Source: Phytophthora quininea
Lineage: Eukaryota; Oomycota; Peronosporomycetes; Peronosporales; Peronosporaceae
Length of the DNA: 64,000 nucleotides
NCBI GenBank assembly: GCA_011947345.1
Contig: JAAVTG010000618.1
Location: 177,510-241,509, forward strand
Reading direction: 5' to 3'
The translations under genes were made by a program, and so were the position numbers. The stretch's first letter is position 1; every line of letters starts with the position of its first letter. The notes under the pieces were generated by a model. The model did not search any database. It had not been told where the DNA came from and saw only the letters and a list, made by a program, of their open reading frames with translations. Positions 2,144 through 41,510 of the stretch are shown here, piece after piece.

Positions 2144-2151
2144 TTCTCAAC
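2144..2151. repeat. Left 8-bp target-site duplication of the hAT element
   Basis: The sequence TTCTCAAC is repeated exactly at 9750-9757, immediately outside the two inverted-repeat ends. Eight bases is the hAT duplication length. Confidence 0.95.
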
Positions 2152-2164
2152 TAGAGTTGGGTAA
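2152..2164 (+). repeat. Left terminal inverted repeat (hAT)
   Basis: TAGAGTTGGGTAA matches the reverse complement of 9737-9749 at all 13 positions. hAT ends commonly carry an AGNGTTGGG-like core. Confidence 0.93.
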
Positions 2165-2170
2165 CAAATA

Positions 2171-2285
2171 ATCCAATCGATTTATCTATCGGATCTGATC
2201 CGATCACAGTCGTTTCTAGTCGGATTGTGTTTGAATCGGGTCAAAAATCGATCCGATCCGATCCAAACCGATCCGATCGGATTGG
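2171..2285. repeat. Left subterminal repeat cluster
   Basis: Several overlapping copies of ATCCGATC/GATCGGAT on both strands lie just inside the left end. Short subterminal repeats like these are the usual transposase-binding sites of hAT elements. The role here is inference. Confidence 0.75.
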
Positions 2286-2453
2286 AGGGCGATAGAAAGC
2301 TATTGGGTAAAACATAGCAAAATTTCTACCAGTTAAAATGTCTCCGGGGCCGCTAGAGGACTCGATCTCGATGATATTCTGTCTTGAGCGATACCCCTAT
2401 CGTACAACGCGGGGAGCATCTGCTGCTACCTGTTGGCCGACTAGAAGACGACG

Positions 2454-4317
2454 GTGAGCCCCGTGGTGCCGACGGCTGTGCACGCCGCCCACAAGAACTA
2501 CACGACCCACGTGCTGCCGATCCTGTTCGACGGCCTGGACCGCTCCAAGAAGTGGCAGATGAAGAAGGGTGCGCTGGACCTGATCGTCGAGTGCCCGAAC
2601 CATGCCTGCCGGACATCGTCCCTCAGGTAACGGACTGCATGTGGGACACCTGCAAGGAGATCAAGGAGGCCGCCAAGGAGACGATGACCAAGGTTTGCAA
2701 CGTGGTGGGCAACCAGGACATTGAGTCCTGCATCCCGGCGCTGGTGAGCTGCCTGGCGAACCCGACGGAGGTGCCCGAGTGCACGCACAAGCTGGCGTCG
2801 ACGACGTTCGTCAAGACGGTGGAAGCGCCCGCCCTTGCCATCATGGAGCCGCTGCTGCAGCGCGCGCTGAAGGAGGGCAAGACGGCCGTGAAGCGCCAGG
2901 CCGCCGTCATCATCGACAACATGTGCAAGCTGATGGACGACCCGGCCGAGGCGCAGCTGTTCATCCCGAAGCTGCTGCCGGGCCTGAAGAAGGTGATCGA
3001 GACCCAGGCCGACCTGGAGTGCTGTGAGATCGCCACTCGCGCCCACGAGACGCTGTTCGTGACTGGTGGTTCCATGGAGGTGTCGGAGGACGAGCTGAAG
3101 GTGGACTACGCCAACGTCCACAAGGTGGTGGTGGAGTCGATCGCGGCCGCCCCCGCCGCCGTGAGGGCTGGCATCGACTCGTTCGCGGTGGACTTCGTGA
3201 CCCGCGTCTGCTTCTTCCTGGTGGCTGCTCGCAACTTTAACAAGACGATCTTCGAGAAGCAGATGACGGCTACTTCAAGGCGGTCATGAAGGCGGACGAC
3301 ATCAAGCCGCTGGTCAACGAGATCCGCGACCGGTGCTTCAAGGAGAACAAGAGCATCTTCATCGAGGACGTGGACTGCGACGAGGGCATCCCGTGCCTGT
3401 GCATCTGCGAGTTCTTGCTCGCCTACGGTGGTATGACCTGCTCAACAACGCCCGTCTCCGCCTGAAGCGCGGCCACCGCTACGGTTTGTGCGGCCCTAAC
3501 GGTTGCGGTAAGTCTACGCTAATGCGCGCCATCGCGAACGGCCAGCTTGACGGCTTCCCTGCGAAGGACGAGCTGAAGGCAGTGTTCGTGGAGCACAACG
3601 TGCAGGAGTCGGAGGTCGAGCTGTCGGTAGTGGACTTCATCCTTGCGGATGAGGACCTGAAGGTGACCCCGCGCCAGGAGGTCATGAACTCGCTGTCGAG
3701 CGTCGGCTTCACGCCGGAGATGCAGGCCCAGGCCGTGGCCACGCTGTCGGGTGGTTGCAAGATGAAACTGGAGCTACCTTCACTATGCTACAGAAGGCCG
3801 ACATCCTGCTGCTTGATGAGCCGACGAACCACTTGGACGTGAAAAACGTTGCGTGGCTGGAGAACTACCTGTTGAACTGCCGAACGTGACGAGCATCATG
3901 GTGTCGCACGACTCTGGTTTCCTGGACACGGTGTGCACGAACATCATTCACTACGAGACGCGCAAGCTGAAGATCTACAAGGGCAACCTGTCGAAGTTCG
4001 TGGAGGTGAAGCCGGAGGCCAAGGCGTACTACGAGCTGGACGCTGCGACGTTCAAGTTCACGTTCCCAGAGCCGAGTTTCCTTGCCGACATCAAGAACGA
4101 GGGTACGCCCATCGTTCGTCTGACGAACTGCTTGTACAAGTACCCTAGCACGGACAAGCCGTCGATCAGCAACATCTCTGTGACGTGCGCTATGACGAGC
4201 CGTATCGCCGTGCTCGGCCCGAACGGTGCCAGTAAGTCTACGATGATCAAGATGCTGACGGGCGAAGATCGCCGACGGCCGCGAAAACGGCACATCTGCT
4301 ACTGGACCAATGACTAG
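2454..4317 (+). pseudogene. Decayed eEF3 (translation elongation factor 3) fragment inside the hAT
   Basis: eEF3 is an ABC-type ATPase that helps release tRNA from the ribosomal E site. The fragment covers HEAT-repeat sequence (2454-3280), the first ABC domain with intact Walker A GPNGCGKST (about 3492-3518), and a signature altered to LSGGCKMKL where W is usual. It continues with the Walker B/D-loop [11 protein letters not shown] in another frame (about 3807-3839) and the start of the second ABC domain. The second Walker A reads GPNGASKST (normally GAGKST), and the frame stops about 25 codons later at 4317. Frame changes are needed near 2605, 3275, 3425, 3770 and 3880. No introns are seen. 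The N-terminus, most of the second ABC domain and the tail are absent, so it cannot encode a working factor. The sequence is more GC-rich than its surroundings, as expected for a captured host gene. Confidence 0.9.
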
Positions 4318-4394
4318 CTAAACAGCATCATAATGAAGTGAACCGCTGCTAGTAATTGAAAAAATGAATGATGGAAGGAGCTTCTGCTTCTGTA

Positions 4395-6440
4395 TTACCA
4401 GCGAAGGTCGACAGGATCAGCATGGACATCACCGGAGGTTGCATTGAATCCAAGAAATGCTTGCAACTCCAACATGGCTGAGATGGCATCGTCCTTAAGT
4501 CGAGCGCGTCGTTTGGTGATTGTAGTTCCTGATGCAGAAAATGCTTGTTCGCTAGGCACTGAGGTTGCCATTACAGCAAGATAATCTCGTGCCATCATCT
4601 GTACACGCGGGAACGACGACGCTTCATCTCTCATCCATCGGCATACGTTTCTGCTTGGTGTTTTCATGGCCATAGTCGTGTCTTTATGGTCAAGCCACCT
4701 ACTTAACTCACTTGCGAAAGATTCACCAATATCGCGTTCAGGCGTAACCAAGCCGAGGTGTTCATCCATAAGTGAGCCCAAAGCTTCCTCGTCTTCGACT
4801 TCTTCTTCTTGTTCTTGCGTTTGCATCATCGCTCTAGCGCTTGCTTCTCTTCTCTCGTGCTCATACCGATACTGGGATTCGAACTCTGCTTCGACGATAC
4901 GTTTCGCGTCGGCGATTTCAATGCCAATCTTGACTAGGTGGGACTTAACCCGTGGATCAAGGACGGCAGCAATCTGTGCCTCTCTAGTCTTGACGTGCGG
5001 TATGTACTCGTCAAGCTTCTGTTTGAAGGCGCGCGCAAAGTCTTTCGTATACCAAGAGGCAGCAGTATCTTTCGTCTTGGCCGCGTGTTTCGAGACGAGG
5101 TCAAAAACCAATAACGCGACGCCAAAGGTGGGGTAGTTTTTGCCAGACATCATTGTAGTTGCAGCCTTAATTGGTCTGAGGAACCTTGCGAGCTCCGCCA
5201 AGTACCCCCATGTTGCCTCTGGTATCGACTCAGCGAGCCGATCGCTTGGCCCAATGATGAATTCTTTGTAGCCTTCGTGTTTCCCCGAATTCTGCGTTGA
5301 AGCTCTTGAATTGCCTCCTTTAAAGAGCGTGCTGAAGCTAGCATCGTTAGCGTGCTGTTCCATCGCGTCACACAGTCTAGTGCTGGTGCTACAAACGCTA
5401 CATCTATAGATGTGCACACTTTTGTAGCGCCTCTAGAAGTGACGGCGAGTCCGATATCTTCTTCAGGATGTCACGGATTATACCCACGCCGTCGTCCATT
5501 ATTGGACATTGTTTGAGACCTTCTTTGACTGCCAGTTGAAACACATGAGCCAGGCAGCGCACTTGAACGACCTTTAAAGGATGCGTAGGGGTCTGTCCAG
5601 GCCCTGATGGCGGATCAGAAATCCTCAAACCTTCATTGCTAGCAACTTCGCCTTCCAGTTCCTTGTTAATTGCGGTAACCATTGTGCCATTGTTGCTAGC
5701 GTTGTCCGTTGTGATTGTCCACAATTTTGTAACGAGGGACTGATCCATCGCACGGACGGTGTCGAGCAGGTGCTGCGCGAGCCTATTGCCGGAGTGAGGG
5801 TATTCCACTCTCGTAAAGCCGACCATAACAGATCGGATATTCCAGTCGTCGTCAATAAAATGCATGGTGATAACCATGTACCCTTTGTTAGCCGCCGAAG
5901 TCCACATATCGGTGGTAAGTGCAGCACGGCAGTTTGCAACTCCTTGCAGTAATTCACGTCTCACGAGTGCCTTCTCACACGCCCAACGCTCCATAATCTT
6001 TTTACGCACAGTCTTGCGCGTCGGTGGCGTGTAGTCCGGATTGAGTGACTCGCAGAAGGAGCGAAACTCATCCTTCTCAACCAAGTTTAGTGGGAGTGAA
6101 GATTTCACGATTAAAGCTACCAACTCAGCATCGACAGCATCCTTGTCCAAAGTTCGCTGCTTCACGAAGCGCTCGAAGCCAAAGTCCAGTAAGTCAGGCT
6201 GTCGGGATTTCTTATTGACGCCGCCATAAACTTCTGGGTGCTTCTGTCTGAGATGGCGACGAAATGTAGAGTGCGCGCAAGTACTCCAGTGAGGCCCTGA
6301 GTCAGCAGAACAGAGTAGACAGGCATATGATCCCTTGTTGTTTTCGTGGATATATGTCCAGACGTCAGATCTTTTTGTGTTTGCGATCCCTGCGAGGTGC
6401 TAGAAGACATGTTTGTGCTTGAGTTCTCTTGCTCCTCCAT
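4395..6440 (-). pseudogene. hAT transposase with BED zinc finger, frame-broken
   Basis: This is the transposase of the surrounding element. A plausible start is at 6440 (MEEQENSS). A BED zinc finger follows in a neighbouring frame (about 6220-6365, CLLCSAD then HLRQKH). Next comes the hAT core, with TDMWTSAANKGY and TTDNASNNGTM in 5404-6165 and CVTRWNSTLTML near 5350. The C-terminal dimerisation domain has YLAVMATSVPSEQAFSASG near 4510-4570. Joining these needs a one-base change in an A-run near 6370, another near 5410, and at least one near 5280-5340. The order and spacing are otherwise complete for a roughly 680-residue hAT transposase. It lies antisense to the eEF3 fragment. Confidence 0.9.
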
Positions 6441-6555
6441 GTTGTGAAGTGATAGCTCCAGGAGAGGTAGAGAGAGGGGGGTGAACGGCTTCGCACTAGC
6501 TCGCAAATGCGAAAATGATTTTGATCGCCGCCAGCGGGAATATGAAGCCCGAGTC

Positions 6556-6589
6556 TGATCGGATCGGATCGGATCGGATCCGATTGGAT
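6556..6589. repeat. Internal GATCGGATC cluster
   Basis: Four or five head-to-tail GGATC-based copies sit about 115 bp upstream of the transposase start. The motif matches the clusters at both ends of the element, so this may mark an earlier end of the element before the right-hand passenger was acquired. Confidence 0.65.
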
Positions 6590-6820
6590 GCGCCGTATTT
6601 CATCTCGTCGCTGGGCTCCGTTAAACGTATGAAAGGCCAAACGACAGACAACTCGCTGACGCCGATCAAAAGTGTGCTCTGCTTCCTCCTTTCACCACCA
6701 ATAACGTCGTATCAGCGGCCAGTAGACGTCACCGCACCACGAATGTTACGATTCCATCTCTCAAACCACCTTACGACTGCACAAGCCGTACCACCAGCGC
6801 TGCCGGTCACCTTTCCAGAC

Positions 6821-6970
6821 GCCGCGCACGTTCACGTTGCCGCACCCACACTCTCTCTAGTGCTGCCACCGGCCTATGTCCACTACCCCGCCGCCGGCAC
6901 TTCGACGGACACCACTCACCAGGCTCACCACGCCATCCGGGCCGGATGACACAGACACGGAGCCTCCGCG
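6821..6970. repeat. Internal direct repeat, copy A
   Basis: About 150 bp closely matching 8718-8873, including the shared block CTCTCTCTAGTGCTGCCACC. After it the sequence jumps to a match with about 9152-9185, as if two parts of the repeat gene were fused. Confidence 0.7.
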
Positions 6971-9288
6971 TGCAGTCGCGTGTGCACCGACACAGAGCCA
7001 CCGCTGTCTGCAGCCACGGGTCCAGTCCTGCCGGCGGACCCTTCTCCACTCGTCAGAGATAGCGAAGCCCAGTCGCCAGCCGAGCTCAAACCAGCAGCCA
7101 CCGTCACGGTGCCGCCCGTTGCACTAGCACCTCCACTCAAACCGGTCACACCGCCGGACCCAGACGCGCCGGAGCTGCTGCCTCCAGACACGCTCACAGA
7201 CCCGCCAGAGTCGCCAGCGTCGCCACCGCCGACGCGCAACGGTCCACTGGGTCCTCTCATCGATGAGCCAGACGTGATCGAGACCAAGCCAGACGAACCG
7301 TCATCCGTCGGACCGCTCGACAGCGACACGGACCCACTGACGGCGCTGCCTGTGCCGGCGTGAGAACGCACTACCACCGTGCCGCTCTCGGTCGATACGC
7401 CCTCGCCGCTGACGATCGTCACATTGCCACCGGTCGACGCGTTGGACGCGCCGCCAACCACAGAAATGCCAGAGCCTTCTCCGCTTCCAGACGAACCCCT
7501 GGATACGTCGATGGACCCAGCACGAGTCTCGCCGGACCCGCTCGCGATTCCGACAGACCCACTCGAGACACTACTAGCACTCGTGCTCACAGCGACATCG
7601 CCACTCGATCCACCCGACACCACGCCGGTCGACACGATCACGTTGCCACTAGTCGAGGCGCCGACGCCGCTGGTCACAGACACAGACCCACCGGCACTCG
7701 CATCAGACGACCCGGCCTCAACCGACACATCGCCTCCGTCGCCTAGCGCGTTCGGAGACCCCACGATCTTCACTTTCTGTGCAGGAGACGAGCTCCTCAC
7801 AGCGCCGCCGCGCAGCTCCACATCGCTGCCAACCGCGACGCTGTCGCCTTGGATGATGCGCAGGCCACCGCCGGAGCCGCTACGGACGGCCACACTGCTT
7901 CCGGCAACACCACTCCCGGAAGCACCACTAGCGATTGTCACGTCACCTCCGGAGCCGTCCGTCGACGACCCGCCAGACACACTGACCGAGCCTCCCAAGC
8001 CGCTTGACTAAGATAATCCGCCGCTCACCTTAACGGAGCCGGCATCTCCCGTCAACGTGTTGCCACCGGCCACTGTGATGGTGCCTCCATCCCCAGCACC
8101 ACCACTAGACCCGCCGACCACATCCAGCGCGCCGCCGTTCGAGCTGGCGCTAGACCCGCTCGCCACACTCACAGCGCCGGACGCGCCAGCCACAGTTTCC
8201 CCAGACACCAACGACACCGCGCCAGAAACCGACGCGCCACTCGATGCAGCGCTACCAACAGACACAGCGCCGCTCGAGACGCCGCCGCTCGAGACGCCGC
8301 CGCTCACCACGGACACGACACCTCCCGTCGACGAGCTGCTAGAGCCTCCCGACACCGACACGTTGCCGGCCGTTCCGCCTGCAGAGCCAGACGCCACAGA
8401 CACATTTCCACTGAAGCTCGACGAAGAAGGCCCCGACGACACACTCACGTCGCCCGAAGCCGCGTCCGCGGACTCACCGCTACTGACCGACACGGCGCCG
8501 CTCGGACTATCCCCCGTCAAACTCACACCGGTCGCAACACGCACGGAACCACTTCCGAGCAAACCGGCGCTAGAAGAGATAGCCACACGGCCGCCCACAC
8601 CAGCGCCACTCATGCCGCCGTCGAGAGAAACACCTCCCCGATGGTCGGGCCAGACGAACCCACGCCGCCAGACAGAGAGACGCCGCCAGCTTCGCCCGAG
8701 GATCCACTCAAAGGCCCGCCGCGCACGTTCCGTTGCCGCCACCCACACTCTCTCTAGTGCTGCCACCGGCAGCTATGTCCACTACCCCGCCGCCAGCACT
8801 GCGACGAACACCACTCACCAGGCTCACCACGCCATCCGGGCCGGATGACATGAAGCCTCCGCGTGCATTCGCGCGGCCGGTTGAGCCGCCGCGGATGCAC
8901 GATGTCGAAAGACCGCTCGCGACGAGTATGTCGCCGCTTGAAGCGCTGGAGCTGTCCCCAGACACCACCGACAGTGTCCCTGACGCGCCGTACACCGCGC
9001 TGCCCTTGCAAACACTGATGTTGCCACTAGCGCCTGACCTTGCCGCAGCCCCGCTCCCAATATCGATAAAACCACTGGCAGCGTCTGCGGCACTCGAGCC
9101 ACTCTGCAACGTCACAGAGCCGCCCACAGAATCACCGCCACTGTGGCCACCATGCACCGACACAGAGCCGCCGCTGTCTGCAGCGCTGGAGCCGCCGACC
9201 ACAGCCACGGACCCAGACGTGCTGCTTGCAGAGCCACCGCTTCCCATCGTCACACTGCCAGACGCGCCGTTGACCGACGCACCAGGCT
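6925..9288 (-). pseudogene. Gly/Ser/Val repeat-protein fragment (beta-solenoid-like), captured in the hAT
   Basis: On the minus strand, about 2.3 kb encodes a degenerate repeat of roughly 15-20 residues of the type GGSVSVSGGSSS / GNVTIASG. Alternating short V-x-V strands and Gly/Ser turns suggest a parallel beta-helix or beta-solenoid, probably a surface or secreted adhesive protein (inference). The reading frame enters after a TAG at about 9289 without a start codon or signal peptide. It changes frame near 8710-8766, has one in-frame TAG near 8008, and ends at 6925. N- and C-terminal domains are missing. I do not recognise a named family. The complementary strand shows long Pro/Thr-rich open frames only as a by-product of the composition. 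Confidence 0.7.
8718..8873. repeat. Internal direct repeat, copy B
   Basis: Partner of 6821-6970 in the same orientation, about 1.9 kb away within the captured repeat-protein fragment. It sits where the minus-strand frame breaks. Confidence 0.7.
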
Positions 9289-9621
9289 AATTCGCATCCG
9301 CAGCAGACGTGCCCGCGCGACGCTAGCGTCACACCAGACTCCACATCACCCGCGTTCGGGCCACCTGAAGTGCCTCCCCCTCCCTCTCACTCGAGCGACG
9401 CTTGCTGCCGGGTCCATCGACACTGCCTGCCCAGTGGGCAGAAACTTTGTCGAAGGTCCGAGTCAGATGACTAGAACCTTTTGTTTTGAATGCGGAAGCT
9501 CGTTTAAAATTATATTAGAAATAGAAGGATGAACTCGCTGTCGTTGTAGTTCACACCTGTTATCCTTCGTATTCAAATGCAACACTGGATCTGTTTCTGC
9601 AGGATCAGTTAGATTTTTATA

Positions 9622-9736
9622 TCGAGTCGATCCGATCGAATCGGATCCGATCGGATTCAATCGATAAAAATCGATAATCGGTATGGACCAATCGAATCGG
9701 TCAGAAGGTACAGATCGATCAATCCGATCTGGTCGA
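9622..9736. repeat. Right subterminal repeat cluster
   Basis: Mixed-orientation TCCGATCGAATCGG motifs fill the last 115 bp before the right terminal repeat, mirroring the left cluster. Confidence 0.75.
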
Positions 9737-9749
9737 TTACCCAACTCTA
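9737..9749 (-). repeat. Right terminal inverted repeat (hAT)
   Basis: Reads TTACCCAACTCTA on the plus strand, the perfect complement of the left end. Confidence 0.93.
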
Positions 9750-9757
9750 TTCTCAAC
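9750..9757. repeat. Right 8-bp target-site duplication of the hAT element
   Basis: Exact second copy of TTCTCAAC abutting the right end. With no mismatch it implies a fairly recent insertion or chance preservation. Confidence 0.95.
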
Positions 9758-25138: not shown

Positions 25139-26693
25139 GTTGACGACATATGGCGACACTACGACATCGAGAGAGAAGGAGGAAAGAAGCATGGGCGATG
25201 TAAGTACTGTGGCTCTCTCAAGAAGAACGGAAAGCCGAGCGGTAACCTTTTAAAGCATTTCACAAAGGCAAGACAATGTCCCAACGTTCCAGGAGATGTC
25301 CGAGCTTTGTTACAGCCGTCCGAACCACCTCTCTTTGCTGCAAACAACCAGCAGGCTTCGTAACCTCCGCCTACAGAGCTAGACCAAGAAACCTTTGAGA
25401 TGGCTTTAGCACAGGTGTTTTTTGTGCGCCCTACCATTTATCTTGGTCGAAGCGCCAATTTTCCGGGAGTTTGTCGCCATGGTCGCTCCAACCATGAAGC
25501 TGCCGTCACGCCACAAGCTGAGCGGTGTGCTTCTGAAACGTGTACGAGACGAGCTGCATCACAGCCACGTGGTCAAGCTGATTAATCAGCACAAATTCGT
25601 ATTACTCGTCACGGACGGCTGGACAGACGCAAATAGCTCGAGCATTATGAATTTTATGGTCGTCGCTCCAGGAATGCCTTCCGTGTTCTGGTCCTCGTGG
25701 TCAACGAGGTCAAATCAACACACAGCCGAATATGTTACCAGTGATATTGACAAAGTTATCGCAGAAATCGAGGTGGAGACGGAGGCTAAAGTAATTGCTG
25801 TTGTCACTGACAATGCCAGCAACATACGGAGTGCAACAGGAAGTATACACAGTCGTCATTATGTTATAAGCGGCGGGTGCTCAGCGCACGTATTAAACTT
25901 ACTCATGCAAGGAGTGTGCCGATTTCTAGCCGTTAAAGCCGTCCATTTGAGAGCGGCTGCCGTCACTCGTTTCGTTCGAGACCATCTCGCTTTGCTTGAC
26001 GAATTCAAGATGCTACAGAGAGGAGTGTGTGGCGAAGGTGTGAAGGCCAGAATTTTATCTCTTCCAGTGCCAACACGCTGGTACTCTGTTCACAATTGCA
26101 TGAGGTGCGTGCTGGATAACGCACAGCTTCTTGAGAAATTGTTTTTGATCCCTGAATACGAGCAATTTTGTGACCGATATCGCGGCACTCCAGCGCGCCG
26201 TCAGAAACTTTATTATATTATGGCGCTGGTTCGAGATGATCAATTTTGGAATAACTTGCGCACTGTAGTTCGTATGTTGGGCTCAATGATCGAAACACCG
26301 AGAAACCTGGAAGTCGATAACATATATGTTTCAGCAGTTTATAAGTGGTTTAGATGGCTGCGCTACCACGCGACGTATGGTGTCGCATCACCTGAGCAAG
26401 AAGCAGAGCTCGACAATGCTCATCCCGATCGAACACAAGGTATGGAGCTGCTTAGTAACACAGCGAGTCGAATTACAGAAGTTGCCCCTGAAAATGCTGC
26501 TGGGCCTGACGAGGATGAGCTCCAGAGTACATCGCCAGATGATGAGAGGTTCCTTGAGGGAGGTAGATACAAGAGTGTTGCTGAACTTGGTATTGCCGAG
26601 CTTCAAAAGTTCATTCGCGAAAGGATTAAAAACGATGGCAGTACGTGCACACAAACGCGATGGCAATCGCGTTCATGCTCGACCAATGACTGA
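25139..26693 (+). pseudogene. hAT-family transposase relic (BED finger + DUF659), C-terminus missing
   Basis: The BED zinc finger at about 25139-25290 has DDIWRHYDIERE, CKYCGSLKK and GNLLKHF. After a TAA near 25362 and a frame change near 25440, a long frame (25422-26693) carries the DUF659-type core: LLVTDGWTDANSSSIMNFMV, VVTDNASNIRSAT, GCSAHVLNLLM and VPTRWYSVHNCM. This layout is common in oomycete hAT elements. The conserved C-terminal dimerisation motif is not found downstream, and the frame degrades after 26640. Terminal repeats were not identified. Confidence 0.85.
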
Positions 26694-29478: not shown

Positions 29479-30743
29479 TTATTGATGGAGTGCAGTAACG
29501 CAAGAATTCAAGAATCGCGTCAAGTTTTGTCCAAAAGTTGTAGTCAGTGGCAAGTTTTCGCGCTTAAGCAAGCTTGGTACGTCTTTTCTTGTCTTTGTGC
29601 ATCTTGTCCAGTGCTCCGTCTTCCAATACGGTTTGAATGACGTGCTTGACATGGCTTCGGGTATATACCAGCGTGTCGGCACCTGTAACCAAAGCCTACG
29701 ACGTTTCTCTGGAGTCAATCCAATTTGATGTTGTTCAAATCGATCTAACAAAATTTACCATTTCGGGATGTACTTAGACAACCAAGTGGCGCTCTCAAGC
29801 ACTGTTTTCACGGGTTGAGTTGCAGGGCGTCCTTCATGACAAGATTCATCATGTGGCGCCGCATCCATTGCAGAACATGTATGGTTTTCTCTCTTCCAAG
29901 ATGTCCCAGACTGCCCTCCTATTGCTGGCGTTGTCTGTCGCGACGCTGCGGACTGCATCTGCGTCCATGATGTCTTCAATTTCTTGAATCATCATGTCAA
30001 TTTTGTTCGCCATATAATCCCCGTGTGATGATTATCGGCCGTGGCTATCGACGACCAAAACATTGGCTTTATAGGAAGTGAGGTGATCATGAAATTAATA
30101 ATGCTCTGCGTCTTTGGGTTCGCCCACTCATCATTGACAATCACCACGTATGGCTCATCCTTGATAGCCTCGAATACGTTTTGCTTCTCACGCGAGAAGG
30201 TGGTTTCTAGCAGTGGGCTAGAAAGCTTGTAGCGAGTCGGAATCTCAAGGTCCGGCCGTAGATGCTTGAAGAGCAACTGCATCTGGGGATCTCTAGGACT
30301 CGAAAGGATATCCCAGTCGTGTACAACGTCACCGCCAAGTCAAGTTCCAGTTCAGCTTGTCCATGCTCGTGGACAAAAGTACTGGAGGAAGGCTTCCGCA
30401 CACTGGGGGGCATAGTGCTTCTTGTGAACGACGCTTTTTCTTCGTTGGTGTCGAACTGAGCGGTGGAGATGCAATCCTCTGCTTGGCCTCCGCTGAGAAC
30501 GAGCAGCTGCGCACATCCTGCTTTAAGTGCTTCCCAACTTGGGCGCAACGGAAGACGCGGTTTCAGTGCGGGCAGCACACATCTGGATGAGCCTTCCCTG
30601 ACCTTTGGCGTCAACTCGAAGAAGAGTTTCCATATCGGCGACGAAGGCTTGCCTTTCGCAGGCATCGCGACAAGCCGAGGTGGCGAGAATCGACGCTCCG
30701 AGTCTTCAAAGAGAGATTCTGTTGCGAGGTCCAACTTAAACAT
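29479..30743 (-). pseudogene. Second DUF659-type hAT transposase relic
   Basis: Minus-strand pieces from 5' to 3': a BED-like N-terminus with SPIWKLFFELTPKVREG (30600-30690, frame-broken); the DUF659 region with YKLSSPLLETTF, YVVIVNDEWANPKTQSIINF and MFWSSIATADNHHTG (29992-30282); a segment equivalent to VATDNASNR/C-HDESCHEG (29755-29979); and the end with LQVPTRWYIPEAM (about 29650-29700). Related to, but clearly diverged from, the copy at 25.1-26.7 kb. Several frame breaks; inactive. Confidence 0.8.
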
Positions 30744-31313
30744 ATTGCGCGCATAAAAATATTCGATCAGAATATTCCCAATGATCTACTGTTTAGTCCT
30801 AATTATTAAGGCATAGTTAGTGCGACTAATTAGTTTTGCCAATTTAGATATTAATTTTTTCCGTCATCAAGTAGCGATCCCCAGGAGCACTAGGGCCGTG
30901 TGAAATGCAGTGTCTTGTTCGGTGTTTCCCTGTATGGGATGGAAGGCGTCCGTGTGGAAGCTGCAGCGTGGTCCGAGAGTGTAACAGGTAGCGTGACAAC
31001 CACTTCTGTATAGCTCCGGCGGGCACGGATGGCGTCGCCCTCGAGAAATGACGTCGCCCTCGAGAAATGACGTCGCTCTCGACAAATGGCGTCACTCTGG
31101 ATGACGACAGGTACTGCTTGTGTTGTAGCTGTGTGGTTTCGTGCGTGTTTCTCGCGCTACTCTGTGCGAACGCAACGGACTGCGGGGCAGCAGGAAGGAA
31201 CCATTAGATGATACGCGTAACGTGTGTTGGGTAGGAGGCTGGTGGGTTGCAGCGAGTGGTGGTGGCAGTGTCTTGGCGGTGTGATTTTTGCGTGGTGTGT
31301 TGCAAAGCCGTGT

Positions 31314-31385
31314 GCACCGTTGGTCTAATGGTTAGGATTCATCCCTTCCAAGGATGAGGTCGGGGTTCGATTCCCCGACGGCGCA
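31314..31385 (+). tRNA. tRNA-Gly(UCC), array copy 1
   Basis: A 72-nt cloverleaf. The anticodon loop CTTCCAA sits on a CATCC/GGATG stem, the A box is TGGTCTAATGG, the B box GGTTCGATTCC, and the discriminator base is A. The acceptor stem GCACCGT/ACGGCGC has an A3-C70 mismatch. CCA is not encoded. Confidence 0.94.
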
Positions 31386-32037
31386 ACTTTGCTCGTGTTC
31401 GCCGACAAAAACGCGATCTGAGCCACACACTTGCTTCCGCGTCGCCGCCATATATCACACCACACCACACCACGACCCGCCTGCCGCTTAGCTCACAATC
31501 CTCGACCCGTCAGGCCTTTCCAGCAGAATGCGCTGGTAGAAGACAAATCGGCGTTGTCACCACACGCAGCAAGAAGCAAATTCTGCTGCGTATTAGCATG
31601 TGCACAAGTGCTCGAGACGTTTGCAATCTCTTCCATCCAGGTGGCGTCTCTCGCACCAAGCGTGCCGCAAAGCCGAAGCGCGAGACACCGTTGCCCGAGT
31701 CTAACTACGATTCTGTTTGCCGCTGTTCCTGCGTCCCGGCGGGTCGTGTAGTTGTTTGAGACAGTGCGCCGACGGTGCTATTGGTTAGGTCTCTCAGCCG
31801 CAGGGAAGAGAGGAAAGATGTCACGCTGCAATCGATTCGTGCGCTGTGACGCCTACCGCAGTTGTCGATGAAGAAAGAACGCTCCGTCCAAGCCACTGGG
31901 CGCTCTCCGATCGAGGAGGCGTGTGCGGCGGAGTGGGCCCTGCGGGGGCTTTCTGTGGCGGCGTGGTGAGGTGTGTGGAGAAGGCAAATTCCCGAGCCCT
32001 TGGGGGTCGATTTGGGCAAACATTGGAATTCTCTGGC

Positions 32038-32109
32038 GCGCCGTTGGTCTAATGGTTAGGATTCATCCCTCCCACGGATGAGGTCGGGGTTCGATTCCCC
32101 GGCGGCGCA
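32038..32109 (+). tRNA. tRNA-Gly(CCC), array copy 1
   Basis: A 72-nt cloverleaf with anticodon loop CTCCCAC on the CATCC/GGATG stem. The acceptor GCGCCGT/GCGGCGC is fully paired apart from a T-G wobble at 7-66. It lies about 650 bp downstream of the UCC gene in the same unit. Confidence 0.94.
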
Positions 32110-32126
32110 CGCCTTATTATTCCTTG

Positions 32127-32160
32127 CGACCTGGTCGACCTGGTCGACCTGGTCGACCTG
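32127..32160. repeat. (GGTCGACCT)n minisatellite in the array unit
   Basis: Palindromic 9-mers follow tRNA-Gly(CCC) by about 18 bp. The same block recurs in every full unit, with about four copies in most and two in the unit at 37.78 kb. Confidence 0.9.
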
Positions 32161-33199
32161 CTCGGTCGCAGAAGCCACATAGGCACGTTTTGTCAAATTC
32201 GCTCACGTCATCCCACATGGCCTCTCGTCGCTCTACAAGATGCACAAGCTATTCTGTCTTGTCCTTCCGCGCTGTAACGCCTGCGTTGCACCACGAGTAT
32301 CCATTCCAGCCGCCGAAAAGATGTGTGTTCCGAAGCGACCGTTCCGACTATTCGCCTCACGGTTTCAATAAATGGGCTAGACAGTAACGCTGCCGTGGCT
32401 TTCTAGCTGTCTAGTCGCGTGCATAGCTTTGTTTGTTTGTGTGCATGCGCGTGGGTTTGTTCTTGTTCCACCAACGATCCCCAGGAGCAATAGGGCCGTG
32501 TGAAATGCAGTGTCTTGTTCGGTGTTTCCCTGTATGGGATGGAAGGCGTCCGTGTGGAAGCTGCAGCGCGGTCCGAGAGTGTAACAGGTAGCGTGACAAC
32601 CACTTCTGTATAGCTCCGGCGGGCACGGATGGCGTCGCCCTCGAGAAATGACGTCGCCCTCGAGAAATGGCGTCGCTCTCTGTGAAACCAGCACTGCAGA
32701 CCAGCGATGCAGATCTCGTGATCTGCCATCGGCAAGCAAGCAAACAAACCAAGTTAGTGCCAACCAGTCATTTAATACATTAGCAGGGTTGAGCGGGCGG
32801 GGGACTGGTCACTATTCAATCCTCCTTCCAACGTACAGGAAGAACTCCCCGTCCGCAAGTCCCGTTGTGGCGATTAGCGCCCAACAACGTTCTGGGTTTG
32901 AGTGCTATCTATGACGAGGAGGTCAAGGTCGGTCGACACGACCTCGTCTCCAAGTCTCTTTCTCTCGACAAATGGCGTCACTCTGGATGACGACAGGTAC
33001 TGCTTGTGTTGTAGCTGTGTGGTTTCGTGCGTGCTTCTCGCGCTACTCTGTGCGAACGCAACGGACTGCGGGGCAGCAGGAAGGAACCATTAGATGATAC
33101 GCGTAACGTGTGTTGGGTAGGAGGCTGGTGGGTTGCAGCGAGTGGTGGTGGCAGTGTCTTGGCGGTGTGATTTTTGCGTGGTGTGTTGCAAAGCCGTGT

Positions 33200-33271
33200 G
33201 CACCGTTGGTCTAATGGTTAGGATTCATCCCTTCCAAGGATGAGGTCGGGGTTCGATTCCCCGACGGCGCA
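33200..33271 (+). tRNA. tRNA-Gly(UCC), array copy 2
   Basis: Identical to the copy at 31314, including the A3-C70 mismatch. Confidence 0.94.
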
Positions 33272-33923
33272 ACTTTGCTCGTGTTCGCCGACAAAAACGC
33301 GATCTGAGCCACACACTTGCTTCCGCGTCGCCGCCATATATCACACCACACCACACCACGACCCGCCTGCCGCTTAGCTCACAATCCTCGACCCGTCAGG
33401 CCTTTCCAGTAGAATGCGCTGGTAGAAGACAAATCGGCGTTGTCACCACACGCAGCAAGAAGCAAATTCTGCTGCGTATTAGCATGTGCACAAGTGCTCG
33501 AGACGTTTGCAATCTCTTCCATCCAGGTGGCGTCTCTCGCACCAAGCGTGCCGCAAAGCCGAAGCGCGAGACACCGTTGCCCGAGTCTAACTACGATTCT
33601 GTTTGCCGCTGTTCCTGCGTCCCGGCGGGTCGTGTAGTTGTTTGAGACAGTGCGCCGACGGTGCTATTGGTTAGGTCTCTCAGCCGCAGGGAAGAGAGGA
33701 AAGATGTCACGCTGCAATCGATTCGTGCGCTGTGACGCCTACCGCAGTTGTCGATGAAGAAAGAACGCTCCGTCCAAGCCACTGGGCGCTCTCCGATCGA
33801 GGAGGCGTGTGCGGCGGAGTGGGCCCTGCGGGGGCTTTCTGTGGCGGCGTGGTGAGGTGTGTGGAGAAGGCAAATTCCCGAGCCCTTGGGGGTCGATTTG
33901 GGCAAACATTGGAATTCTCTGGC

Positions 33924-33995
33924 GCGCCGTTGGTCTAATGGTTAGGATTCATCCCTCCCACGGATGAGGTCGGGGTTCGATTCCCCGGCGGCGCA
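33924..33995 (+). tRNA. tRNA-Gly(CCC), array copy 2
   Basis: Identical to the copy at 32038. Confidence 0.94.
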
Positions 33996-35079
33996 CGCCT
34001 TATTATTCCTTGCGACCTGGTCGACCTGGTCGACCTGGTCGACCTGCTCGGTCGCAGAAGCCACATAGGCACGTTTTGTCAAATTCGCTCACGTCATCCC
34101 ACATGGCCTCTCGTCGCTCTACAAGATGCACAAGCTATTCTGTCTTGTCCTTCCGCGCTGTAACGCCTGCGTTGCACCACGAGTATCCATTCCAGCCGCC
34201 GAAAAGATGTGTGTTCCGAAGCGACCGTTCCGACTATTCGCCTCACGGTTTCAATAAATGGGCTAGACAGTAACGCTGCCGTGGCTTTCTAGCTGTCTAG
34301 TCGCGTGCATAGCTTTGTGTTTGCATGCGCGTGGGTTTGTTCTTGTTCCACCAACGATCCCCAGGAGCAATAGGGCCGTGTGAAATGCAGTGTCTTGTTC
34401 GGTGTTTCCCTGTATGGGATGGAAGGCGTCCGTGTGGAAGCTGCAGCGCGGTCCGAGAGTGTAACAGGTAGCGTGACAACCACTTCTGTATAGCTCCGGC
34501 GGGCACGGATGGCGTCGCCCTCGAGAAATGACGTCGCCCTCGAGAAATGGCGTCGCTCTCTGTGAAGCCAGCACTGCAGACCAGCGATGCAGATCTCGTG
34601 ATCTGCCATCGGCAAGCAAGCAAACAAACCAAGTTAGTGCCAACCAGTCATTTAATACATTAGCAGGGTTGAGCGGGCGGGGGACTGGTCACTATTCAAT
34701 CCTCCTTCCAACGTACAGGAAGAACTCCCCGTCCGCAAGTCCCGTTGTGGCGATTAGCGCCCAACAACGTTCTGGGTTTGAGTGCTATCTATGACGAGGA
34801 GGTCAAGGTCGGTCGACACGACCTCGTCTCCAAGTCTCTTTCTCTCGACAAATGGCGTCACTCTGGATGACGACAGGTACTGCTTGTGTTGTAGCTGTGT
34901 GGTTTCGTGCGTGCTTCTCGCGCTACTCTGTGCGAACGCAACGGACTGCGGGGCAGCAGGAAGGAACCATTAGATGATACGCGTAACGTGTGTTGGGTAG
35001 GAGGCTGGTGGGTTGCAGCGAGTGGTGGTGGCAGTGTCTTGGCGGTGTGATTTTTGCGTGGTGTGTTGCAAAGCCGTGT

Positions 35080-35151
35080 GCACCGTTGGTCTAATGGTTA
35101 GGATTCATCCCTTCCAAGGATGAGGTCGGGGTTCGATTCCCCGACGGCGCA
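35080..35151 (+). tRNA. tRNA-Gly(UCC), array copy 3
   Basis: Identical to the copy at 31314. Confidence 0.94.
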
Positions 35152-35803
35152 ACTTTGCTCGTGTTCGCCGACAAAAACGCGATCTGAGCCACACACTTGC
35201 TTCCGCGTCGCCGCCATATATCACACCACACCACACCACGACCCGCCTGCCGCTTAGCTCACAATCCTCGACCCGTCAGGCCTTTCCAGCAGAATGCGCT
35301 GGTAGAAGACAAATCGGCGTTGTCACCACACGCAGCAAGAAGCAAATTCTGCTGCGTATTAGCATGTGCACAAGTGCTCGAGACGTTTGCAATCTCTTCC
35401 ATCCAGGTGGCGTCTCTCGCACCAAGCGTGCCGCAAAGCCGAAGCGCGAGACACCGTTGCCCGAGTCTAACTACGATTCTGTTTGCCGCTGTTCCTGCGT
35501 CCCGGCGGGTCGTGTAGTTGTTTGAGACAGTGCGCCGACGGTGCTATTGGTTAGGTCTCTCAGCCGCAGGGAAGAGAGGAAAGATGTCACGCTGCAATCG
35601 ATTCGTGCGCTGTGACGCCTACCGCAGTTGTCGATGAAGAAAGAACGCTCCGTCCAAGCCACTGGGCGCTCTCCGATCGAGGAGGCGTGTGCGGCGGAGT
35701 GGGCCCTGCGGGGGCTTTCTGTGGCGGCGTGGTGAGGTGTGTGGAGAAGGCAAATTCCCGAGCCCTTGGGGGTCGATTTGGGCAAACATTGGAATTCTCT
35801 GGC

Positions 35804-35875
35804 GCGCCGTTGGTCTAATGGTTAGGATTCATCCCTCCCACGGATGAGGTCGGGGTTCGATTCCCCGGCGGCGCA
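35804..35875 (+). tRNA. tRNA-Gly(CCC), array copy 3
   Basis: Identical to the copy at 32038. Confidence 0.94.
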
Positions 35876-36965
35876 CGCCTTATTATTCCTTGCGACCTGG
35901 TCGACCTGGTCGACCTGGTCGACCTGCTCGGTCGCAGAAGCCACATAGGCACGTTTTGTCAAATTCGCTCACGTCATCCCACATGGCCTCTCGTCGCTCT
36001 ACAAGATGCACAAGCTATTCTGTCTTGTCCTTCCGCGCTGTAACGCCTGCGTTGCACCACGAGTATCCATTCCAGCCGCCGAAAAGATGTGTGTTCCGAA
36101 GCGACCGTTCCGACTATTCGCCTCACGGTTTCAATAAATGGGCTAGACAGTAACGCTGCCGTGGCTTTCTAGCTGTCTAGTCGCGTGCATAGCTTTGTTT
36201 GTTTGTGTGCATGCGCGTGGGTTTGTTCTTGTTCCACCAACGATCCCCAGGAGCAATAGGGCCGTGTGAAATGCAGTGTCTTGTTCGGTGTTTCCCTGTA
36301 TGGGATGGAAGGCGTCCGTGTGGAAGCTGCAGCGCGGTCCGAGAGTGTAACAGGTAGCGTGACAACCACTTCTGTATAGCTCCGGCGGGCACGGATGGCG
36401 TCGCCCTCGAGAAATGACGTCGCCCTCGAGAAATGGCGTCGCTCTCTGTGAAGCCAGCACTGCAGACCAGCGATGCAGATCTCGTGATCTGCCATCGGCA
36501 AGCAAGCAAACAAACCAAGTTAGTGCCAACCAGTCATTTAATACATTAGCAGGGTTGAGCGGGCGGGGGACTGGTCACTATTCAATCCTCCTTCCAACGT
36601 ACAGGAAGAACTCCCCGTCCGCAAGTCCCGTTGTGGCGATTAGCGCCCAACAACGTTCTGGGTTTGAGTGCTATCTATGACGAGGAGGTCAAGGTCGGTC
36701 GACACGACCTCGTCTCCAAGTCTCTTTCTCTCGACAAATGGCGTCACTCTGGATGACGACAGGTACTGCTTGTGTTGTAGCTGTGTGGTTTCGTGCGTGC
36801 TTCTCGCGCTACTCTGTGCGAACGCAACGGACTGCGGGGCAGCAGGAAGGAACCATTAGATGATACGCGTAACGTGTGTTGGGTAGGAGGCTGGTGGGTT
36901 GCAGCGAGTGGTGGTGGCAGTGTCTTGGCGGTGTGATTTTTGCGTGGTGTGTTGCAAAGCCGTGT

Positions 36966-37037
36966 GCACCGTTGGTCTAATGGTTAGGATTCATCCCTTC
37001 CAAGGATGAGGTCGGGGTTCGATTCCCCGACGGCGCA
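36966..37037 (+). tRNA. tRNA-Gly(UCC), array copy 4
   Basis: Identical to the copy at 31314. Confidence 0.94.
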
Positions 37038-37689
37038 ACTTTGCTCGTGTTCGCCGACAAAAACGCGATCTGAGCCACACACTTGCTTCCGCGTCGCCGC
37101 CATATATCACACCACACCACACCACGACCCGCCTGCCGCTTAGCTCACAATCCTCGACCCGTCAGGCCTTTCCAGCAGAATGCGCTGGTAGAAGACAAAT
37201 CGGCGTTGTCACCACACGCAGCAAGAAGCAAATTCTGCTGCGTATTAGCATGTGCACAAGTGCTCGAGACGTTTGCAATCTCTTCCATCCAGGTGGCGTC
37301 TCTCGCACCAAGCGTGCCGCAAAGCCGAAGCGCGAGACACCGTTGCCCGAGTCTAACTACGATTCTGTTTGCCGCTGTTCCTGCGTCCCGGCGGGTCGTG
37401 TAGTTGTTTGAGACAGTGCGCCGACGGTGCTATTGGTTAGGTCTCTCAGCCGCAGGGAAGAGAGGAAAGATGTCACGCTGCAATCGATTCGTGCGCTGTG
37501 ACGCCTACCGCAGTTGTCGATGAAGAAAGAACGCTCCGTCCAAGCCACTGGGCGCTCTCCGATCGAGGAGGCGTGTGCGGCGGAGTGGGCCCTGCGGGGG
37601 CTTTCTGTGGCGGCGTGGTGAGGTGTGTGGAGAAGGCAAATTCCCGAGCCCTTGGGGGTCGATTTGGGCAAACATTGGAATTCTCTGGC

Positions 37690-37761
37690 GCGCCGTTGGT
37701 CTAATGGTTAGGATTCATCCCTCCCACGGATGAGGTCGGGGTTCGATTCCCCGGCGGCGCA
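37690..37761 (+). tRNA. tRNA-Gly(CCC), array copy 4
   Basis: Identical to the copy at 32038. The adjacent minisatellite is two 9-mers shorter here. Confidence 0.94.
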
Positions 37762-38833
37762 CGCCTTATTATTCCTTGCGACCTGGTCGACCTGCTCGGT
37801 CGCAGAAGCCACATAGGCACGTTTTGTCAAATTCGCTCACGTCATCCCACATGGCCTCTCGTCGCTCTACAAGATGCACAAGCTATTCTGTCTTGTCCTT
37901 CCGCGCTGTAACGCCTGCGTTGCACCACGAGTATCCATTCCAGCCGCCGAAAAGATGTGTGTTCCGAAGCGACCGTTCCGACTATTCGCCTCACGGTTTC
38001 AATAAATGGGCTAGACAGTAACGCTGCCGTGGCTTTCTAGCTGTCTAGTCGCGTGCATAGCTTTGTTTGTTTGTGTGCATGCGCGTGGGTTTGTTCTTGT
38101 TCCACCAACGATCCCCAGGAGCAATAGGGCCGTGTGAAATGCAGTGTCTTGTTCGGTGTTTCCCTGTATGGGATGGAAGGCGTCCGTGTGGAAGCTGCAG
38201 CGCGGTCCGAGAGTGTAACAGGTAGCGTGACAACCACTTCTGTATAGCTCCGGCGGGCACGGATGGCGTCGCCCTCGAGAAATGACGTCGCCCTCGAGAA
38301 ATGGCGTCGCTCTCTGTGAAGCCAGCACTGCAGACCAGCGATGCAGATCTCGTGATCTGCCATCGGCAAGCAAGCAAACAAACCAAGTTAGTGCCAACCA
38401 GTCATTTAATACATTAGCAGGGTTGAGCGGGCGGGGGACTGGTCACTATTCAATCCTCCTTCCAACGTACAGGAAGAACTCCCCGTCCGCAAGTCCCGTT
38501 GTGGCGATTAGCGCCCAACAACGTTCTGGGTTTGAGTGCTATCTATGACGAGGAGGTCAAGGTCGGTCGACACGACCTCGTCTCCAAGTCTCTTTCTCTC
38601 GACAAATGGCGTCACTCTGGATGACGACAGGTACTGCTTGTGTTGTAGCTGTGTGGTTTCGTGCGTGCTTCTCGCGCTACTCTGTGCGAACGCAACGGAC
38701 TGCGGGGCAGCAGGAAGGAACCATTAGATGATACGCGTAACGTGTGTTGGGTAGGAGGCTGGTGGGTTGCAGCGAGTGGTGGTGGCAGTGTCTTGGCGGT
38801 GTGATTTTTGCGTGGTGTGTTGCAAAGCCGTGT

Positions 38834-38905
38834 GCACCGTTGGTCTAATGGTTAGGATTCATCCCTTCCAAGGATGAGGTCGGGGTTCGATTCCCCGACG
38901 GCGCA
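38834..38905 (+). tRNA. tRNA-Gly(UCC), array copy 5
   Basis: Identical to the copy at 31314. Confidence 0.94.
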
Positions 38906-39552
38906 ACTTTGCTCGTGTTCGCCGACAAAAACGCGATCTGAGCCACACACTTGCTTCCGCGTCGCCGCCATATATCACACCACACCACGACCCGCCTGCC
39001 GCTTAGCTCACAATCCTCGACCCGTCAGGCCTTTCCAGCAGAATGCGCTGGTAGAAGACAAATCGGCGTTGTCACCACACGCAGCAAGAAGCAAATTCTG
39101 CTGCGTATTAGCATGTGCACAAGTGCTCGAGACGTTTGCAATCTCTTCCATCCAGGTGGCGTCTCTCGCACCAAGCGTGCCGCAAAGCCGAAGCGCGAGA
39201 CACCGTTGCCCGAGTCTAACTACGATTCTGTTTGCCGCTGTTCCTGCGTCCCGGCGGGTCGTGTAGTTGTTTGAGACAGTGCGCCGACGGTGCTATTGGT
39301 TAGGTCTCTCAGCCGCAGGGAAGAGAGGAAAGATGTCACGCTGCAATCGATTCGTGCGCTGTGACGCCTACCGCAGTTGTCGATGAAGAAAGAACGCTCC
39401 GTCCAAGCCACTGGGCGCTCTCCGATCGAGGAGGCGTGTGCGGCGGAGTGGGCCCTGCGGGGGCTTTCTGTGGCGGCGTGGTGAGGTGTGTGGAGAAGGC
39501 AAATTCCCGAGCCCTTGGGGGTCGATTTGGGCAAACATTGGAATTCTCTGGC

Positions 39553-39624
39553 GCGCCGTTGGTCTAATGGTTAGGATTCATCCCTCCCACGGATGAGGTC
39601 GGGGTTCGATTCCCCGGCGGCGCA
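39553..39624 (+). tRNA. tRNA-Gly(CCC), array copy 5
   Basis: Identical to the copy at 32038. Confidence 0.94.
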
Positions 39625-40714
39625 CGCCTTATTATTCCTTGCGACCTGGTCGACCTGGTCGACCTGGTCGACCTGCTCGGTCGCAGAAGCCACATAGGCA
39701 CGTTTTGTCAAATTCGCTCACGTCATCCCACATGGCCTCTCGTCGCTCTACAAGATGCACAAGCTATTCTGTCTTGTCCTTCCGCGCTGTAACGCCTGCG
39801 TTGCACCACGAGTATCCATTCCAGCCGCCGAAAAGATGTGTGTTCCGAAGCGACCGTTCCGACTATTCGCCTCACGGTTTCAATAAATGGGCTAGACAGT
39901 AACGCTGCCGTGGCTTTCTAGCTGTCTAGTCGCGTGCATAGCTTTGTTTGTTTGTGTGCATGCGCGTGGGTTTGTTCTTGTTCCACCAACGATCCCCAGG
40001 AGCAATAGGGCCGTGTGAAATGCAGTGTCTTGTTCGGTGTTTCCCTGTATGGGATGGAAGGCGTCCGTGTGGAAGCTGCAGCGCGGTCCGAGAGTGTAAC
40101 AGGTAGCGTGACAACCACTTCTGTATAGCTCCGGCGGGCACGGATGGCGTCGCCCTCGAGAAATGACGTCGCCCTCGAGAAATGGCGTCGCTCTCTGTGA
40201 AGCCAGCACTGCAGACCAGCGATGCAGATCTCGTGATCTGCCATCGGCAAGCAAGCAAACAAACCAAGTTAGTGCCAACCAGTCATTTAATACATTAGCA
40301 GGGTTGAGCGGGCGGGGGACTGGTCACTATTCAATCCTCCTTCCAACGTACAGGAAGAACTCCCCGTCCGCAAGTCCCGTTGTGGCGATTAGCGCCCAAC
40401 AACGTTCTGGGTTTGAGTGCTATCTATGACGAGGAGGTCAAGGTCGGTCGACACGACCTCGTCTCCAAGTCTCTTTCTCTCGACAAATGGCGTCACTCTG
40501 GATGACGACAGGTACTGCTTGTGTTGTAGCTGTGTGGTTTCGTGCGTGCTTCTCGCGCTACTCTGTGCGAACGCAACGGACTGCGGGGCAGCAGGAAGGA
40601 ACCATTAGATGATACGCGTAACGTGTGTTGGGTAGGAGGCTGGTGGGTTGCAGCGAGTGGTGGTGGCAGTGTCTTGGCGGTGTGATTTTTGCGTGGTGTG
40701 TTGCAAAGCCGTGT

Positions 40715-40786
40715 GCACCGTTGGTCTAATGGTTAGGATTCATCCCTTCCAAGGATGAGGTCGGGGTTCGATTCCCCGACGGCGCA
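40715..40786 (+). tRNA. tRNA-Gly(UCC), array copy 6
   Basis: Identical to the copy at 31314. Confidence 0.94.
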
Positions 40787-41438
40787 ACTTTGCTCGTGTT
40801 CGCCGACAAAAACGCGATCTGAGCCACACACTTGCTTCCGCGTCGCCGCCATATATCACACCACACCACACCACGACCCGCCTGCCGCTTAGCTCACAAT
40901 CCTCGACCCGTCAGGCCTTTCCAGCAGAATGCGCTGGTAGAAGACAAATCGGCGTTGTCACCACACGCAGCAAGAAGCAAATTCTGCTGCGTATTAGCAT
41001 GTGCACAAGTGCTCGAGACGTTTGCAATCTCTTCCATCCAGGTGGCGTCTCTCGCACCAAGCGTGCCGCAAAGCCGAAGCGCGAGACACCGTTGCCCGAG
41101 TCTAACTACGATTCTGTTTGCCGCTGTTCCTGCGTCCCGGCGGGTCGTGTAGTTGTTTGAGACAGTGCGCCGACGGTGCTATTGGTTAGGTCTCTCAGCC
41201 GCAGGGAAGAGAGGAAAGATGTCACGCTGCAATCGATTCGTGCGCTGTGACGCCTACCGCAGTTGTCGATGAAGAAAGAACGCTCCGTCCAAGCCACTGG
41301 GCGCTCTCCGATCGAGGAGGCGTGTGCGGCGGAGTGGGCCCTGCGGGGGCTTTCTGTGGCGGCGTGGTGAGGTGTGTGGAGAAGGCAAATTCCCGAGCCC
41401 TTGGGGGTCGATTTGGGCAAACATTGGAATTCTCTGGC

Positions 41439-41510
41439 GCGCCGTTGGTCTAATGGTTAGGATTCATCCCTCCCACGGATGAGGTCGGGGTTCGATTCCC
41501 CGGCGGCGCA
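41439..41510 (+). tRNA. tRNA-Gly(CCC), array copy 6
   Basis: Identical to the copy at 32038. Confidence 0.94.

Follow-up and report, generated by a model that had tools for sequence, protein, structure and literature searches.

When a transposon takes up a piece of a host gene, does that piece keep to itself from then on, or can its parent gene still rewrite it? The question is raised by an element in a stretch of 64,000 nucleotides from Phytophthora quininea (C610:177510-241509, hereafter the window), in which a hAT transposon of 7.6 kb (2152-9749) carries a fragment of an eEF3 gene and, on the opposite strand, a fragment of a tandem-repeat gene, referred to here as its passengers. All data on copies of the element come from one genome assembly (87.2 Mb, 993 contigs). 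The best explanation, to which we assign a probability of roughly 85%, is that a hAT captured the two host-gene pieces and amplified the 7.6-kb composite, that the parents repeatedly overwrote parts of the passengers, and that one such version founded the present burst of copies. As a case of capture, the element is a further example of what is known for hATs, in another host group; the unexpected part is the mosaicism of the passengers, with their host-like tracts.

Host-like tracts inside the passengers

The copies were compared as seven lineages, the window subfamily counting as one, with a tract common to its 13 identical copies. A site was taken as diagnostic where the donor has another base than most of the other lineages, and the longest donor-like run was set against 20,000 shuffles for each lineage and passenger (14 tests). 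The eEF3 alignment is marked by shared passenger-specific differences, which in four of the seven lineages are replaced by host bases in a block. The run comprises 44 sites in C636 (2944-3664, ~720 bp; 45/115 sites donor-like), 15 sites in C558 (3265-3497, with a further 3; 18/115), 9 sites in the window subfamily (3883-4026; 18/115) and 6 sites in the older copy C610:68k (3548-3607; 6/113). In the repeat passenger, runs are found in C216 (8 sites, 8571-8738; 8/90 donor-like) and again in C610:68k (12 sites, 8957-9074, with two isolated ones; 14/63). Each of the six runs lies at the permutation floor (P 5e-5). Small insertions and deletions (indels) follow the eEF3 blocks, two in C636 and in C558 and three in the window subfamily. 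The donors lie on different contigs, C3 for eEF3 and C691 for the repeat, and both served for C610:68k. Outside its run, C636 has the derived state at 70/71 diagnostic sites, and inside it at 0/44, a pattern that rules out a simple tree as the source of the mosaic.

The direction of transfer was assessed at in-tract codons where the unconverted C639 differs from the host, each being scored against the eEF3 proteins of three relatives. At least two of the three agree with the host at 21/23 codons in C636 (of the other two, one agrees with the copy and one is mixed), at 7/7 in C558, 4/4 in C610:68k and 7/7 in the window subfamily; the codons of C558 and C610:68k are a subset of those of C636. 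Because the host state at the tract codons is, by this protein comparison, the ancestral one, the direction in the eEF3 tracts of these four lineages is shown to be from host to transposon.

The tracts are best read as the outcome, on repeated occasions, of gene conversion from the parental genes or of template switching into them, a mechanism that we infer. An Ac-like hAT family took up part of the single-exon eEF3 gene and slightly more than one tandem-repeat unit, and the 7.6-kb composite multiplied by transposition. The chromosomal parents would have overwritten passenger segments, at places that vary from copy to copy, and one version so overwritten would have founded the present burst. 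A break inside the element, or one left by its excision, may be repaired by copying, during which the copying strand would leave its template where passenger and parent are alike and then return. Such a switch into the parent and back would be the template switching already proposed for gene capture itself; the origin models for animal Pack-TIRs are gap filling and fork switching (PMC8277862).

Several observations weigh against this reading. No run was found in eight of the 14 lineage-by-passenger tests, namely in the eEF3 passenger of C216, C206 and C639 and in the repeat passenger of the window subfamily (one isolated site), C636, C558, C206 and C639. The repeat passenger was compared over 7945-9417 only in five of the six older lineages, and the repeat part of C636 at 7020-7920 holds no clear tract; there, 32 sites are shared with the window copy, 3 are private to C636 and 1 is private to the window copy. 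The copies differ by many 1-2 base indels resembling read error, and they come from a single assembly. An open frame runs through the sampled half of the transposase in 0/21 rows (the window copy being counted twice), and the 11 replacement and 10 silent changes in this half, counted by hand with the stretch 5279-5429 excluded, point to modest constraint (P 0.023 against an assumed 75% replacement). The search for empty insertion sites, reported below, scored 40 of 194 candidates, so some sites may be missed.

The alternative that survives best is nevertheless improbable. It holds that the element is a plain transduplicating hAT, and that the mosaic comes from recombination among element copies, some of them unsampled and with younger passengers (e.g. 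from a second capture). The flanks swapped in the C552 pair and in C23/C461 do hint at exchange between copies, but the host-like tracts are placed differently in each lineage, with few private changes, the switch in C636 between derived and host states is nearly complete, and among the 36 genome matches of the eEF3 passenger no element has a passenger that is host-like throughout. We give still less credence to the tracts being an artefact of assembly or polishing. The copies of the window subfamily, with many 1-2 base indels and no substitutions, do have the look of long-read error, and swapped target-site duplications (TSDs) could be mis-joins; yet the C636 run consists of 44 substitutions and two indels, in a copy with a perfect TSD on a 188-kb contig, there are six separate runs from two donors, and the run of the window subfamily recurs unchanged in its 13 copies, which lie on as many contigs. 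A polisher would also be expected to be drawn by reads of the many element copies towards the element and not towards the host sequence.

The passengers and their parent genes

The features of the element in the window are as follows.

2144..2151, no strand: left TSD, TTCTCAAC, same as 9750-9757
2152..2164, plus strand: left 13-bp terminal inverted repeat (TIR), exact reverse complement of 9737-9749
2184..2293, plus strand: left subterminal GATCGG/CCGATC repeats (repeat family D1, with more members at 6554-6590 and 9621-9667)
2422..4265, plus strand: captured eEF3 fragment with frameshifts and deletions, from alignment to the full-length C3 gene and Pfam EF3 and ABC domains
3883..4026, plus strand: host-like stretch of the eEF3 passenger in the window subfamily, 9 diagnostic sites and 3 indels
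4395..5432, minus strand: C-terminal part of the transposase open reading frame (ORF), with Dimer_Tnp_hAT (PF05699) and hAT-like RNase-H (PF14372)
5404..6399, minus strand: N-terminal part of the transposase ORF, 11 homologues at E <= 1e-3, no Pfam match
6554..6590, plus strand: block of GATCGG repeats inside the element, upstream of the transposase (family D1)
6820..7014, minus strand: captured repeat-protein fragment, pieces fitting the next unit of the donor array, from donor alignment
7028..9284, minus strand: captured repeat-protein fragment, main piece, 94.2% identical over 2283 columns to a C691 unit
9312..9420, minus strand: captured repeat-protein fragment, piece at its edge that shares 76% identity with the donor
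9621..9667, plus strand: right subterminal GATCGG/CCGATC repeats (family D1)
9737..9749, minus strand: right 13-bp TIR, exact inverted match to the left end
9750..9757, no strand: right TSD, TTCTCAAC, same as 2144-2151

The first-pass annotation, made from the window alone, had taken the passengers for pieces of two unrelated host genes on opposite strands, one of them eEF3, and the parents of both have now been located; the host-like tracts go unmentioned in it. The eEF3 passenger matches PF24984 (E 2.5e-33), PF24987 and PF00005. Its parent is an intact, full-length, single-exon gene on C3 (aligned stretch C3:606700-610400), from which it differs, besides deletions and frameshifts, by 109 substitutions among 1847 aligned bases. 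The host gene is doubled as inverted copies ~5.4 kb apart (C3:606969-608842 and C3:614281-616154), with 0 differences across the aligned part. An RNA intermediate in the capture is possible, because the parent gene has no intron.

The host eEF3 protein shares 91% identity with its counterpart in Nothophytophthora sp. and 90% with a cluster represented by Peronospora matthiolae, which fits a host within the Peronosporales. The origin of the passenger was examined at residues where host eEF3 differs from two mutually agreeing relatives. At 15 such residues the C216 passenger agrees with the host at 11, with the relatives at 2 and with neither at 2; at 13 such residues the window passenger agrees with the host at 10, with the relatives at 1 and with neither at 2. 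Because these residues mostly match the host, the eEF3 piece was most likely captured inside the host's own lineage. A recent horizontal entry of the element, with an eEF3 piece from another species, would fit the zero substitutions among many copies, but it is made highly improbable by these residues and by the degraded relatives of the element and of the repeat passenger in the same genome (C578, C732).

The repeat passenger (~6820-9420) is Ser/Gly-rich and coding on the minus strand. Its donor is a giant tandem-repeat gene on C691 (~206.8-242.4 kb), in which a protein search gave 12 strong matches and one split match to the passenger; a DNA search with the passenger did not have this donor among its matches, perhaps because common words were skipped. 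The unit of the array measures ~2.71 kb, neighbouring units are 99.7% identical in the stretch read, and the passenger covers most of one unit. Positions 6820-6980 and 6982-7014 match L077 at 4829-4666 and 4369-4337, and also the equivalent places one unit earlier. Because these extra pieces fit the following donor unit, the capture probably spanned more than one unit, with pieces lost afterwards. The C691 repeat itself has no Pfam match, and a protein search with the C732 repeat ORF, made to name the family, gave none at E <= 1e-3 among the best 7996 candidates. ORFs adjoining the C691 array carry Peptidase_S74 (chaperone of endosialidase) domains. Giant tandem-repeat genes of the SGxVxxSSG type are found at C691:204300-245400, at C185:193109-227477 and on C88, and possibly encode long fibrous proteins.

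Divergence from the donor is uneven along the repeat passenger of the window copy (chi-square 88.9, 25 degrees of freedom, P 4e-9; 7028-9284 in 92-base bins), and at its outer edge (9285-9420) 28/129 sites differ. In the eEF3 passenger the unevenness is weak (P 0.02 in the window copy, 0.19 in C216 and 0.17 in C639). The degraded relative on C578 is 86.5-87.7% alike to the element in the transposase region and 68-72% alike in the repeat region, which in turn is 69-78% alike to the C691 unit; by eye, it shares the right junction of the element. Older conversions may have refreshed the repeat interior in the live lineage, and a faster decay of C578 would fit too. Another relative, at C732:51900-56900, has a repeat fragment that is 92.7% identical but a right end that is 76% identical, and the transposase match on that contig is only 66% alike; its repeat pieces and right end are ordered as in the window element, and a transposase-like ORF nested in it, together with a RING-like ORF, can be made out by eye.

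The element, its copies and its mobility

The ends of the element had been described as perfect, and this is upheld. The 8-bp TSD is exact on both sides, and the 13-bp TIR reads TAGAGTTGGGTAA at the left end and TTACCCAACTCTA, its reverse complement, at the right. The start of the TIR, TAGAG, fits a YARNG-like hAT consensus. The C-terminal ORF of the transposase matches PF05699 (E 4.2e-14; 52.5 bits against a cut-off of 21.4) and PF14372 (E 4.6e-6; 27.2 bits against a cut-off of 27). With its 8-bp TSD, short TIR and dimerisation-domain transposase, the element belongs to the hAT superfamily, as first proposed. In the window copy the transposase is split into two overlapping minus-strand ORFs. 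Among the 11 homologues of the N-terminal ORF are an unnamed protein (63% identity over 98%) and Ac-like transposases of Phytophthora citrophthora ('putative AC transposase') and Nothophytophthora, with 53% identity over 56% and 60% of the N-terminal piece.

A search of the genome with both ends, which the first-pass annotation had proposed, gave 23 matches to the left-end probe (179 bp; 14 at 100% identity) and 27 to the right-end probe (310 bp). Paired per contig, these form 21 pairs at element length, 19 of which have both TIRs intact; the left ends of the C206 and C780 copies are damaged. Identical 8-mers flank both ends in 12/19 two-TIR copies. By comparison of 600-bp flanks, C825 repeats C826 and C553 repeats one C552 copy, which leaves 17 distinct sites. 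The eEF3 fragment is present in all 19 two-TIR copies (22 element copies overall carry it), and the repeat fragment is whole or nearly whole in 17 of the 19, with internal deletions that leave parts only in C558 and C610:68164.

Flanks of 11 sites were joined around one TSD and queried against the genome. Among the candidates scored, related empty sites, without the element and with one TSD, were found for five (C435, C752, C216, C826, C963), at 92-96% across the junction over all 180 bases and with lengths agreeing within 3 bases; the C636 site gave weaker matches (80-85%). For the window's own site the same candidates included no empty allele, just its right half. The related empty sites may be paralogues rather than alleles. 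Because the two-ended copies share their passengers and the empty sites lack the whole element, the 7.6 kb element moves as one unit, as had been claimed; neither ends belonging to separate elements nor an empty allele lacking only part of it, the outcomes named beforehand as refuting this, was found. The idea that two solo ends or nested elements came to make up the 7.6 kb by chance, without ever moving as one, is refuted by the 19 two-ended copies with both passengers and by the related empty sites, even though the internal GATCGG block (6554-6590) looks like the subterminal repeats.

Thirteen copies, each on a contig of its own and that of the window among them, have eEF3 passengers of 100% identity, and the same copies show 0 substitutions, just 1-2 base indels, in the left end and the sampled half of the transposase. 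Such a burst of near-identical copies indicates that the family is recently active. Four older copies differ from the window subfamily by 1.9-2.6% in eEF3 and by 0.85-1.2% in the transposase half, a gap that is significant in three of the four comparisons (P 0.012, 0.005 and 0.0012; 0.066 in the fourth) and that fits a constrained transposase with nearly neutral passengers. Between the older copies and the window subfamily the eEF3 passenger has 46 replacement and 27 silent changes, compared with 76% replacement expected without transition bias (P 0.012). The reading of this passenger as a pseudogene fragment is thus partly borne out, in that it evolves near neutrally, not exactly so.

Some individual copies have features of their own. 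In two pairs (C552:232396-239990 / C552:244595-252179 and C23:274994-282589 / C461:6370-13956) the left and right 8-mers are swapped between partners, the pattern expected of recombination between copies (for C552, inversion of a 4.6-kb spacer) or of assembly mis-joins. The copy at C27:57598-65188 has a left flank ending in AGCCTCAATGAGGCT and a right flank starting with AGCCTCAT, a palindromic target that presumably resembles a hairpin-type hAT footprint. The copy at C636:156949 is flanked by GTAAGT and by a T-rich stretch ending in ACAG, and probably sits within an intron. The older copy C610:68k (C610:68164-74749) has ~0.9 kb extra in the transposase region and a deletion in the repeat passenger.

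Known systems and significance

With host fragments inside its TIRs and their parents on C3 and C691, the element bears out the proposal of gene capture by a hAT; the added remark that such capture is rarely described for hATs was too strong. As cases of transduplication, hATs with a transposase and histone H3 are reported from Pyrenophora tritici-repentis (PMC3538342) and Pseudocercospora fijiensis (PMC6710886), and Pack-hATs are known from maize (PMC8903248) and frog (PMC8277862). The fungal elements are alike in combining a transposase domain and a captured housekeeping gene in tens to hundreds of copies, whereas the oomycete element differs in the genes captured, in having two passengers that are unrelated and lie on opposite strands, and in its host-to-element tracts; 'gene conversion' occurs 0 times in PMC3538342. 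Plant Pack-TYPE elements and Pack-hATs (PMC8903248) likewise have host fragments between hAT ends, a TSD and a parent elsewhere, but Pack-TYPE elements are described as non-autonomous, and the oomycete element keeps its transposase region (frame-broken in the assembly). Under the strict plant Pack-TYPE definition there is no transposase match, and here a transposase domain is present; as in transduplicating or Pack-type elements more broadly, fragments lie inside the TIRs, with parents elsewhere and insertions at 17 distinct sites. Animal Pack-TIRs, including the multicopy Pack-hAT-N8_XT of frog, share the multicopy capture and the gap-filling and fork-switching models; there, switching is proposed for the birth of the element, whereas the oomycete passengers seem to have been rewritten later ('gene conversion' has 0 occurrences in PMC8277862). 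Conversion from a parent into a captured fragment was not found among the titles and abstract openings of the literature covered, which was partial, and no priority is claimed.

Divergence from the parent gene is the common yardstick by which captured fragments are dated and assessed. Where a parent can overwrite its fragment, the ages obtained are too young, and apparent conservation is not necessarily a sign of selection. A stolen gene piece can, on the preferred reading of repeated overwriting, stay in genetic contact with its source gene, and several tracts and two donors in one genome make the repair model of capture directly testable.

By the layout of the element, a transcript from the right end would be sense for the repeat piece and the transposase, and antisense for eEF3. 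Exact 21-mers of the passengers occur in the parent sequences read (569/1831 for the eEF3 piece and 1057/2581 for the repeat piece), so that small-RNA cross-talk between passenger and parent is possible in principle. In maize, a conflict over small interfering RNAs between captured fragments and essential donor genes, with 'camouflaging' of the element, is described in a review (PMC13317346), and the present element provides a case from an oomycete in which the proposed conflict would arise, since a host silencing the transposon would have to spare its own gene carried in it. A tentative and rather unlikely extension is that, in a live transposon, captured fragments and their parents undergo concerted evolution through continual rewriting by repair, so that the element is near-identical to eEF3 despite the age of the capture. 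If this were true, the refreshed identity could protect the element against small-RNA silencing, which would hit an essential gene, and the element would carry current host alleles round the genome.

Elsewhere in the window, a second transposase-like ORF (25410-26693) has a DUF659 domain (PF04937, E 1.4e-20), which is described as occurring in hAT transposases (PMC6710886). Further on, 30000-43000 is a tandem array whose period is ~1.88 kb; its sub-repeats lie at 32127, 34013, 35893, 39642 and 41528, its GC content is ~0.56, and there is no ORF of 150 amino acids between 30786 and 44297.

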